Part shown: positions 1,064 through 4,779 of the stretch, one piece after another
Numbering within the stretch: position 1 is the stretch's first letter
Layout: each line of letters opens with the position of its first letter
Assembly: GCA_918026815.1 (NCBI GenBank)
Contig: CAKJVC010000092.1
Coordinates: 1,178,001 to 1,242,000, forward strand
Origin: Chalara sp. BL73
Lineage: Eukaryota > Ascomycota > Leotiomycetes > Helotiales
Direction: 5' to 3'
DNA length: 64,000 bases
Notes under the pieces: model-generated
Databases searched by the model: none
What the model saw: the letters and a program-made list of their open reading frames with translations, nothing else
Told to the model about the DNA's origin: nothing
Made by a program: the position numbers and the translations under genes

Positions 1064-1190
1064 AGCAATGTGGCGCAGGTAAATTTTCCCACCCAGCAAT
1101 TCTTCCAATGTTAGCATACTAACATTATCATAGCGGAAGCGCGCCGGGCTCATAACCCGGAGGTCCCTGGATCGAAACCAGGCATTGCTA
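1064..1190 (+). tRNA. Initiator tRNA-Met (CAU) with an intron in the D loop
   Basis: Exon parts are 1064-1078 and 1134-1190, with a 55-base insertion at 1079-1133. After joining, every arm pairs: acceptor AGCAATG with CATTGCT (7 of 7), D stem GCGC with GCGC, anticodon stem CCGGG with CCCGG, and T stem CCTGG with CCAGG. The anticodon loop is CTCATAA. Initiator hallmarks are present: A1:U72, three G:C pairs at the base of the anticodon stem, and a T loop reading ATCGAAA instead of TTCRANN. B box at about 1170-1180. The A box (from 1071) is split by the insertion, which sits near tRNA position 15/16 rather than the canonical 37/38. Thymine runs follow. Whether the gene is functional depends on the insertion being removed. 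Confidence 0.85.
1079..1133 (+). other. Spliceosomal-type intron inside the tRNA gene
   Basis: The insertion begins GTAAAT, ends CATAG, and contains a perfect TACTAAC branch sequence at 1117-1123. The branch A is 11 bases from the 3' end. Its length (55) and layout match the pre-mRNA introns of the other genes here. It has no bulge-helix-bulge context and is not next to the anticodon, so it does not look like a tRNA-endonuclease intron. Splicing itself is not shown by DNA. Confidence 0.75.
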
Positions 1191-2016: not shown

Positions 2017-4779
2017 CTACTGTGGAATAGGGCAGAAATCCGGATAATTGGTCTCGCTATCGGCATTGTTGCCCCACCAGTTGGGAAAGGGTTTAGAAGG
2101 ACCACCCGCGCCGAAGACGGCGAAGGACAAGATGAAGAGCGCTGTGAGACTGGCGCCGTCGAAAGCGCCAGTGACCAAGTACGAGTAATCTTTGAAGATA
2201 CGTGGGCGGTAGTTTCGGAGGTAGAACTGAACGAAGAAGCCAGTAATAACTTGACTCAGGAGTACGCAAGTCTGGGACGCGTTGTATGGGATAAATCCAG
2301 CATACTGTATGAACTGGGGCATATTGATATCCGAAAATGAGAAGCCTCGGTATTTTGGAATAAACTATGAGCACTCGAAGTCAGTACGAAGAGACAGGAA
2401 AAAGCACTGATAACTCGATAAATTGGGTGCACTCACATATACGAAGACTCGGTGAATAATGACAATGCCGGCGCCAATAGCCAACCCAATTGGCACGATA
2501 TCGTACTTAGCGCCAGTTCGGTAGAGGTATCTGGCCAAGGCCCAAGAAGTTGCATTGGTATTATACGACTGGATATTCGCACCGCTCCAGGAAGAGTTTC
2601 CATTGCTATCAACAAGAAGCTCGCGATTGCCATTCACAATAGAGGTCATCACTGCGTAATTGACAAAGCCGCCTACAATGGTGCCATAGATTTGAGTAAG
2701 GAACATGGCACGAGGAGGTACCTTGACTGCGTCAACGGATCAGCATTTTAGTCCACGAATGGGTTGAAGTCATAGCACGTACGATATTCACCCATCTTCA
2801 GGTCATTGCAAAGGTTGACGGTGTTTGAGATGACATTGTGGGACCAAGCGGCAAAGTACATGTTACCAATGGGGCGGTTTGGAAGCATCAGCCCTGCCAA
2901 CATTTTCGACAGATTGTTCGTGGCAATACCATTGCCGTACCGAGAATAGAGCAGGGTGCTCTGCGATAACGTCAGAAAAAAAAAGATTGTATGTGGGAAA
3001 ACGGCTACTCACAAAGGGTGCGATTATAATTCCTAACAGCAGAGCAGCAACGTATGCCCAAACCGGAAGGGTAATGTTCTCCTTGACGACGACGACGAGA
3101 CCAAGAATAAAGCTGAAAATAAGCACGGCGACATACCAATACCATGGAGTCTCTTTGTAGTGCTCGGCCATATGTACATGGTGCCGATCGTCATAGCTCC
3201 CGGCTTTTGCGCTCTTGAATGCTCTTTTGACGTCTCCGCCCCAAAAGATTATGCAGTGCGTAATTAAGGCACCGATCTATGAAATGGTTAGTTCATGAAG
3301 AGGTAAGAAACAATATGCAATAAGCTCGAATACTTACGGCAGCATTCGCCATGAACATTGCGTATGCAAAACTCCCCGTAAGTCTGGGAATACCATACTT
3401 GGTCAAAGCATCCTTGTCGAGGATACCACCAACGAAGACTTTCGCGATTGGGTACGCTCCACCTTCCTCAGTTCGAAGCCGTGTGGACATGAATGGCTGC
3501 GACTTAGCATCCCAGGCATTGGTGTAGTAGATGCCGAGCATAGCAGCAAAGCAGATGACATAACCTGCCGCCGCATGTGCTTGCAATGGGAGAGGGAGAG
3601 AAGTGTTAAAGGAAGTGATCTGTAAGAGTTAAGTCAGTCAGCCCAGTTGCTTCAGAAGAGATGCGCCGTCTTACATATTGCCAGTCGAAAGATAGGTTGA
3701 AAAACCCCAGTCCTTCATTATTGAGGGATCCTCCAAAGAGATTTGTTAGTACAGCTGCTTTGCTACCCGTAGCGTGCATCGCGGCTAGGCAGGGAATGGA
3801 AACAGAGTTTAGCCACGGCCAAATGTAGGCAGGGAAGAACTCGTAAAAGAACATGCCCCCGAAACTGTACCAGAAGAATCGGAGAGGCTTGGAGCTTTTC
3901 AGGTCTTGCCAATGAAGTCCTTGGAGGGTCTTGACGGTGGGAAGAGTACTCCAGTAAACTGCATCGACATGCCAGACGGCAATGGGACGTAAGAGGCCAG
4001 CGACACCGTAGCCAAACAGCCCAATGGATATGGTACTCAAGACAATCGCGGTAGCGGTCAAAGGCAGGTCGTAGAAGAGGTCTTGTGCCGCAAAAACGAT
4101 GATGCTAGCGGAGGCATTGGACGCGGAAGTGGCGGTGATGGCACATATTGAGTGCTCTTTCAAACCCCACGGCCCATAATTGAAGAAGGAAGCGATCTTG
4201 ATCCATCGAGGGATATCACCTTGGCCGCCTTTCTCCCTCCATCGTGCCTCGAGTTTGTCACCGCGAGGGAGAATGTTGGACCACGCCTTGCCAACGAAAT
4301 AAGCGATGAGGACGATAAACGTGCCCGAGATGACCACAGACGTCGGTTTGAACTGGATGAAGAATCAGCATATATTTGGCGCGGAACCATTACAGCAACC
4401 AGATTTAACTCACGTAGTAAATCTGGCTCATGACAGCCTGGAAAGCCGAGAGACAAGTGGCCAAGAATAGACTGCGAAACGTGATGGCTGGATCGCCATC
4501 GTCCCGCATTGGCAGCAAGTGGGCAGCCGCATCAGCACCGGTGATAATGATCACGTCGTCACTGTTGTTGTCCTTGTTACCGTCCTCGTCGATCTCGTAC
4601 TGAGGGACCACGGCGGGAGCGGCCTTGATCTCACCGTCGAGCGCGCCCAGCTCGGTGTTGTCAACTGAAGGGCGGATTTTCTCGTTGATGGCCCCATGGC
4701 TAGGCACCGGGACGACCTTGCCCTCGACCGGGTTGAGGGCGCCGACGACGATCGACTCGGCGTTAGGGGCGTTTGCCAT
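2017..4779 (-). CDS. OPT-family oligopeptide transporter
   Basis: Seven coding exons: 4779-4414, 4352-3675, 3619-3338, 3276-3013, 2960-2783, 2726-2437, 2364-2017. The phases join to give 801 residues, a normal length for the family. The protein has a hydrophilic acidic N-terminus, then many membrane segments. Family hallmarks include AYFVGKAWSNILPRGD, YGPWGLKEHS, the NLFGG region, TPWYWYVA, the loop MLPNRPIGNMYFAAWS, and GEYLKVPPRAMF across an intron. The C-terminus has PKYRGF and NWWGNN as in fungal OPTs. These are proton-coupled importers of small peptides or related compounds at the plasma membrane. The start at 4779 is chosen because upstream residues from 4833 are not family-like. The exact substrate cannot be read from sequence. 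Confidence 0.93.

Follow-up and report, generated by a model that had tools for sequence, protein, structure and literature searches.

Nuclear tRNA introns are taught as being of a single kind, located between positions 37 and 38 and removed by a protein endonuclease. The U6 snRNA of S. pombe and of other fungi, a product of RNA polymerase III (Pol III), resembles the locus described here in carrying a short spliceosomal intron within a small structured RNA, but U6 is not a tRNA. In the assembly of Chalara sp. BL73, six U6 matches were found, all of them uninterrupted, by a search which a split U6 gene could escape. For fungi, one report names U3 and U6 as RNAs other than mRNA with spliceosomal introns (PMC5832005). 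The fungal U3 snoRNA is similar in that normal spliceosomal introns interrupt a non-coding RNA, here a snoRNA and not a tRNA, and according to the same report nearly all of them are located in the most 5′ stem-loop (PMC5832005). In lichen-forming ascomycetes, ectopic spliceosomal introns are present in the rDNA, and it was described that a 57-bp intron is removed from the rRNA transcript and that this 57-bp intron was transferred into yeast rDNA (PMC8527467); these hosts are ascomycetes as well, but the transcript is a Pol I rRNA and not a Pol III tRNA. Insertions in the D and T arms, as found here, are known from nucleomorphs and Cyanidioschyzon. A review states that eukaryotic D-/T-arm introns were described from nucleomorphs and a red alga, others being supposed pseudogenes, that those of Guillardia are 3–24 nt long and that bulge-helix-bulge (BHB) motifs are thought to be critical in Cyanidioschyzon (PMC4090602). 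Searches of the open-access literature, i.e., subscription papers and preprints aside, brought up the U6, U3 and rRNA precedents but no tRNA gene with a spliceosomal intron. An earlier sequence-only reading of this DNA had named the U6 precedent and knew of no such intron in a nuclear tRNA.

The window analysed here is a stretch of 64,000 nt of contig C86 (C86:1178001–1242000) from an assembly of 58.66 Mb in 199 contigs. By its sequence anatomy it contains, on the plus strand, an initiator tRNA-Met gene split into exon 1 (AGCAATGTGGCGCAG, 1064–1078), comprising the acceptor 5′ strand, positions 8–9, the D-stem 5′ strand, A14 and G15, and exon 2 (1134–1190), comprising the remaining D arm, the CAU anticodon arm, the T arm, the acceptor 3′ strand and A73. 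A 55-nt insert of spliceosomal type (1079–1133) separates them in the D loop between positions 15 and 16. It starts with the 5′ splice site GTAAAT (1079–1084, in the context CAG/GTAAAT), contains the branch-site motif TACTAAC (1117–1123), in which A1122, at a distance of 11 nt from the intron end, is the presumed branch point, and closes with the 3′ splice site TAG (1131–1133). A 2-base ambiguity at the junction allows three cut registers with an identical product, and GT-AG ends are obtained in one register only. The branch site is enclosed by a perfect 8-bp stem (AATGTTAG-CATA-CTAACATT, 1107–1126), which could impede pairing with U2; an equally long stem was present in 0.2% of 2000 shuffles, and the perfect stems of the eight other introns described below reach at most 5 bp (loops of 3–8). 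Judged by the box consensus, the insert interrupts the A box (1071 onward) and leaves the B box intact (GGATCGAAACC, 1169–1179). Downstream, a T7 run (1205–1211) is the presumed Pol III terminator, and a second T7 run follows at 1216–1222.

In the unspliced state this tRNA escapes detection. It was found neither by ARAGORN on the whole window as it stands, nor by ARAGORN on the unspliced locus with introns allowed, nor by Rfam at the gathering threshold in the window; at a loose threshold the Rfam tRNA model scored 28.4 against a cut-off of 29 and covered model positions 8–63 only. After removal of 1079–1133, ARAGORN reports tRNA-Met(CAT), and the product shows 21/21 stem pairs and 14/14 conserved positions in our structure scorer. 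By eye it has the features of a eukaryotic initiator: the CAU anticodon, A1:U72, A54 and an anticodon stem with three G:C pairs. The sequence-only reading had described the locus accurately with respect to the letters and D-loop position of the insert, the intact initiator tRNA with its initiator-specific bases after excision and the split A box. Combinations of GTR.D, CTAAC and YAG in a 55-mer occur three times among 127,880 such stretches of the window (both strands), the insert being by its letters one of the three. Moreover, an intron-aware tRNA scan, in which each intron-like stretch of 45–70 nt was excised and ARAGORN was run across the junction, was positive for one of 116 candidate excisions in the window, namely this locus, and for none of 201 decoy-motif excisions and none of 699 excisions in five block-shuffled windows. 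An exact gapped pattern of the intron-split initiator matched 31 times in bacterial and archaeal genomes, with CATAA within 15 nt downstream in 0/31, and did not match in viral contigs.

Besides the initiator gene, the assembly contains seven more split tRNA genes and one near-identical extra copy, all with GT-AG inserts of 50–54 nt outside of 37/38. These are a Lys(UUU) gene on C121 (54 nt at 9/10), two Lys(CUU) genes on C62 and C122 (each interrupted in the T loop, at 57/58, by 50 nt; the near-identical copy of the former is located on the 35-kb contig C57), a Gln(UUG) gene on C1 (52 nt at 13/14), two Ala(CGC) genes on C118 (53 nt at 21/22) and C83 (52 nt at 20/21), and an Arg(UCU) gene on C170 (54 nt at 21/22). 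The Gln gene and the C83 Ala gene carry an apparent second intron at 37/38. The split genes were traced via truncated tRNA matches, pattern searches and small sequence stretches; all three truncated matches among the 58 tRNA matches of the assembly turned out to be split genes. Pattern matches numbered 6, 105, 205 and 22 against 4, 219, 545 and 46 for reversed-pattern controls. These counts are barely or not above the controls, and the finding rests on the tRNA structure. The assembly has at least eight split tRNA genes, a lower bound that refers to the first 100 of the 205 and 100 of the 105 matches, the remaining matches considered for the 105-, 205- and 22-match patterns being assessed by eye only. 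In unspliced form ARAGORN found nothing at six of the nine loci (eight genes and the C57 copy) and a wrong tRNA at three, thus the correct name at none, and after excision it gave the correct name at eight; the Gln gene was named Ser until its apparent 37/38 intron was also taken out. The intron-aware scan of loci from this genome was positive for 18 of 448 excisions, a figure that includes repeat copies and alternative cuts; all 18 belong to the nine loci, and 0/592 decoys were positive. The seven further split genes strengthen considerably the interpretation of the initiator insert as a spliceosomal intron, which the sequence-only reading had put forward as an mRNA-type intron and which these genes support at the sequence level.

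The inserts share the anatomy of short spliceosomal introns. Across the nine loci they are 50–55 nt long, start with GTAAAT, GTAAGA, GTGAGT, GTATGT or GTAAGT and end with CAG or TAG; with respect to a GTRNGT 5′ splice site, the initiator (GTAAAT) and Lys(UUU) (GTAAGA) inserts are each one letter off. CTAAC or CTAAT is present in 9/9 with its A 10–12 nt before the insert end, which suits a CTRAY branch site. The branch site is a fully independent observation only for the two Lys(CUU) genes and the C57 copy, because CTAAC was part of the search patterns for most of the others: it was contained in the patterns leading to the Lys(UUU) gene (which also had a truncated Rfam match) and to the Gln, both Ala and the Arg genes, and the initiator gene was possibly picked through its motifs by the sequence-only reading. 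In the later finds, no selection had been made for the 5′ splice sites, the lengths or the matching upstream acceptor strands. As a comparison with introns of the host, six introns predicted in an OPT-transporter gene of the window are 52–72 nt long; the predictor allowed 44–99 nt and required intron motifs, so that only their lengths and the open frame are informative, and the gene prediction is supported by a nearly full-length Pfam profile match rather than by cDNA. This gene, predicted to encode an OPT oligopeptide transporter of 801 aa, is located downstream of the tRNA gene on the minus strand (2017–4779).

An evaluation without reference to splice signals was made by scoring all 435 excisions per locus for tRNA structure with GT-AG ignored, the 37/38 introns of the Gln and C83 Ala genes having been removed beforehand. 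A GT-AG excision was among the best at six of the nine loci, GT-AG excisions making up 0.5–0.9% of all. For both Ala genes it is one point below the best, the D stem having a T:T, and at C57, where exon 2 is short of one C, it fails the structure score. The score is sharp for the Lys(CUU) genes on C62 and C122 and for Lys(UUU), with one to three products tied, and weak for the initiator gene, for which 25 excisions giving 20 products tie; for Arg two GT-AG cuts tie. With respect to their sequences, a clear likeness among the nine introns is seen only within the Lys(CUU) group (C62, C57 and C122). Many other intron pairs score higher than shuffled sequences, as is to be expected from common splice signals, the highest being the initiator and Gln introns with 38 identical of 58 aligned positions. 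In an introner check made for the initiator intron only, 29 nt of it occurred a single time in the genome with up to three mismatches. An origin of the inserts as introners is conceivable but has no support from these comparisons.

The most serious competing explanation is that the split genes are pseudogenes with dead-end intron-like insertions that are left unspliced, the cell being supplied by intact paralogs. This is improbable in our judgment. The search for intact paralogs covered three of six tRNA kinds, namely Lys(UUU), Lys(CUU) and the initiator, and was successful for each; split copies that have such paralogs could be tolerated dead copies. Short eukaryotic D-/T-arm insertions were supposed to be pseudogenes in the review cited above (Yoshihisa, 2014; PMC4090602). 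However, the exons of the Lys genes equal those of the intronless paralogs exactly, and the introns have diverged. The spliced Lys(UUU) sequence is identical to an intronless gene on C49 over 74/74 positions, with 100-nt flanks only 50–54% alike, and the exons of both Lys(CUU) genes are identical to each other and to an intronless gene on C141 (73/73). Their two introns are identical at 39/50 positions, GTGAGTAA and AGCTGCAAGCTAATAATT being unchanged and the splice signals kept, and their flanks are 54% alike over 100 nt upstream and 69% over 100 nt downstream. Immediately downstream, over the first 40 nt, the likeness reaches 93%, and a part of the Lys(CUU) unit is therefore possibly of recent origin. 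Where exons differ, pairing is preserved: the two Ala genes differ by three double and two single pairing-compatible changes with none unpaired, and both keep G3:U70, the identity element of alanine tRNA. Furthermore, T-run terminators follow all nine loci. Some split copies may nevertheless decay, because the C57 copy is short of one C and the acceptor stem of a His-like locus on C13 is unpaired; the apparent decay of the latter is what a pseudogene origin would lead one to expect. As a separate observation, the three Lys(CUU) genes have a common 3′ trailer, its first 40 nt being 88–93% alike, with a near-palindrome GAGCAGTTGCTC about 32 nt past the tRNA.

For the initiator itself, a search with the spliced sequence retrieved four places: the split gene, an intronless copy on C11 and intronless copies on C82 and C134. 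The flanks of the latter two are 99.3% identical over 1570 nt, and these copies probably represent a single locus that was assembled in duplicate. In the C82 copy, the 3′ strand of the D stem contains one additional A. Intact initiator genes thus exist elsewhere, a possibility that the sequence-only reading had raised. The split gene differs from the C11 copy at eight positions, which constitute four pairs altered on both sides, with no difference unpaired or in loops, and from the C82 copy at seven, of which four belong to two compensated pairs and the other three do not. Since intact initiator genes exist, the function of the split gene is deduced from the compensated pairs and the terminator and not from need; the gene is not necessarily essential, and the compensated differences could be older than the gain of the intron. 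As to the C82/C134 copy (C82:213477–213549 and C134:27–99), it shows a D-stem GCAGC with the extra A and a T loop ATCAAAA, and it is perhaps decaying or altered.

Another explanation would be that the tRNA endonuclease removes the inserts as BHB-type non-canonical introns, of which Archaea and Cyanidioschyzon provide examples that are similar in their D-/T-arm positions (PMC4090602 and PMC3978253). In a test of the standard motif form, with a 4-bp helix flanked by two 3-nt bulges at the cuts, in both orientations, four of four central pairs were formed at 0/9 loci. Considering all equivalent registers, the central helix reaches at most 2/4 pairs in the standard orientation, equalled in 73–96% of random placements, and at most 3/4 in the other. 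As there is no full bulge-helix-bulge at any register, a removal by the tRNA endonuclease alone is unlikely, and such an origin also leaves the GT-AG ends, the branch site and the narrow length range without explanation, making it a very improbable account. Ordinary TSEN-type introns are also introns of tRNA genes, and the Gln and C83 Ala genes apparently have both kinds, but the inserts differ from them in position, GT-AG ends and branch site: none is located at 37/38, the sites being 9/10, 13/14, 15/16, 20/21, 21/22 and 57/58. A group I or group II intron core is absent, the inserts having 50–55 nt against hundreds of nt, and in the initiator insert Rfam matched no family apart from three bases at the end of the insert that are covered by the tRNA match.

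It is similarly hard to believe that the loci are split tRNA-like units inside Pol II transcripts, with ordinary mRNA or ncRNA introns and no tRNA product. Spliceosomal introns are normally features of Pol II transcripts, and by eye six of the nine inserts split a promoter box (five of the eight genes), namely the A box in the initiator, Lys(UUU) and Gln genes and the B box in the Lys(CUU) genes, with neither being split in the Ala and Arg genes. On the other hand, a run of at least five T within 60 nt downstream is present at 9/9 loci, compared with 5.1% of 20,000 random 60-nt stretches of the window (fewer than 60 nt downstream were examined at four of the nine loci), and the acceptor stems keep tRNA-specific pairs such as G3:U70 of the Ala genes. 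Moreover, by eye each split gene has at least one promoter box uncut. An assembly or contamination artefact, for which near-duplicate contigs (C82/C134 and C57/C62) might be quoted, is extremely improbable given that each of the eight genes is located on a contig of its own, with contig sizes between 195 kb and 2.24 Mb, that one intron occurs in two diverged copies and that separate intronless paralogs have different flanks, all contigs being assumed to belong to one organism.

We therefore hold it to be very likely that the split initiator locus is a Pol III-transcribed tRNA-Met gene with a U2-type spliceosomal intron in the D loop, and one of at least eight such genes. That Pol III transcribes the gene, that the spliceosome removes the intron and that the product is used is what we infer from sequence features. 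The primary transcript would extend as far as the T7 terminator. The short intron would be recognised via the 5′ splice site, the branch site and the 3′ AG and be removed by the nuclear spliceosome, and the joined tRNA would then be trimmed and folded normally. For the Gln(UUG) gene and one Ala(CGC) gene, the apparent 37/38 intron would also be lost via the tRNA splicing endonuclease. This suggests that the mRNA splicing machinery contributes to tRNA production in Chalara sp. BL73. A wider reading, which is conceivable but more doubtful than probable, is that of a lineage that uses the spliceosome as a standard tRNA processor, with introns spread among many of its tRNA genes, some tRNA kinds encoded by split genes only, with Ala(CGC), Gln(UUG) or Arg(UCU) as tentative candidates, and individual pre-tRNAs handled by spliceosome and tRNA endonuclease alike. 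If so, translation would depend directly on the splicing capacity.

Spliceosomal tRNA introns would add a further class of non-mRNA transcripts to the targets of the spliceosome. tRNA finders can miss split genes, and genes dismissed as pseudogenes due to D-/T-arm insertions would deserve re-examination. Moreover, where an intronless paralog has the identical product, one can assess cleanly whether the split transcript is spliced and at what time, and how split promoter boxes are tolerated.

Several other loci were considered in the census and set aside. The His(GUG)-like locus (C13:159852, within C13:159730–159975) has an acceptor stem without pairing, and ARAGORN named none of its 48 GT-AG excisions; it has an intron-like CTAAC...CAG and D and T arms that are paired by eye, and it is maybe a decayed split tRNA gene. 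C9:176005 was dropped as 0/34 excisions yield a tRNA. Four Asp(GUC)-like loci (C112:421129, C122:587642, C139:291938 and C170:42915) are ordinary genes by eye, in which the D loop itself has CTAACGG. With respect to the window proteins, one of 968 residues shows 95% identity to a protein of Bisporella sp. PMI_857, a member of the Helotiales, and the remaining named best matches are mostly from Leotiomycetes. Finally, the stretches between anticodon and 3′ stem are variable among the four Asp(GUC)-like genes and by eye represent ordinary 37/38 introns that differ in sequence.
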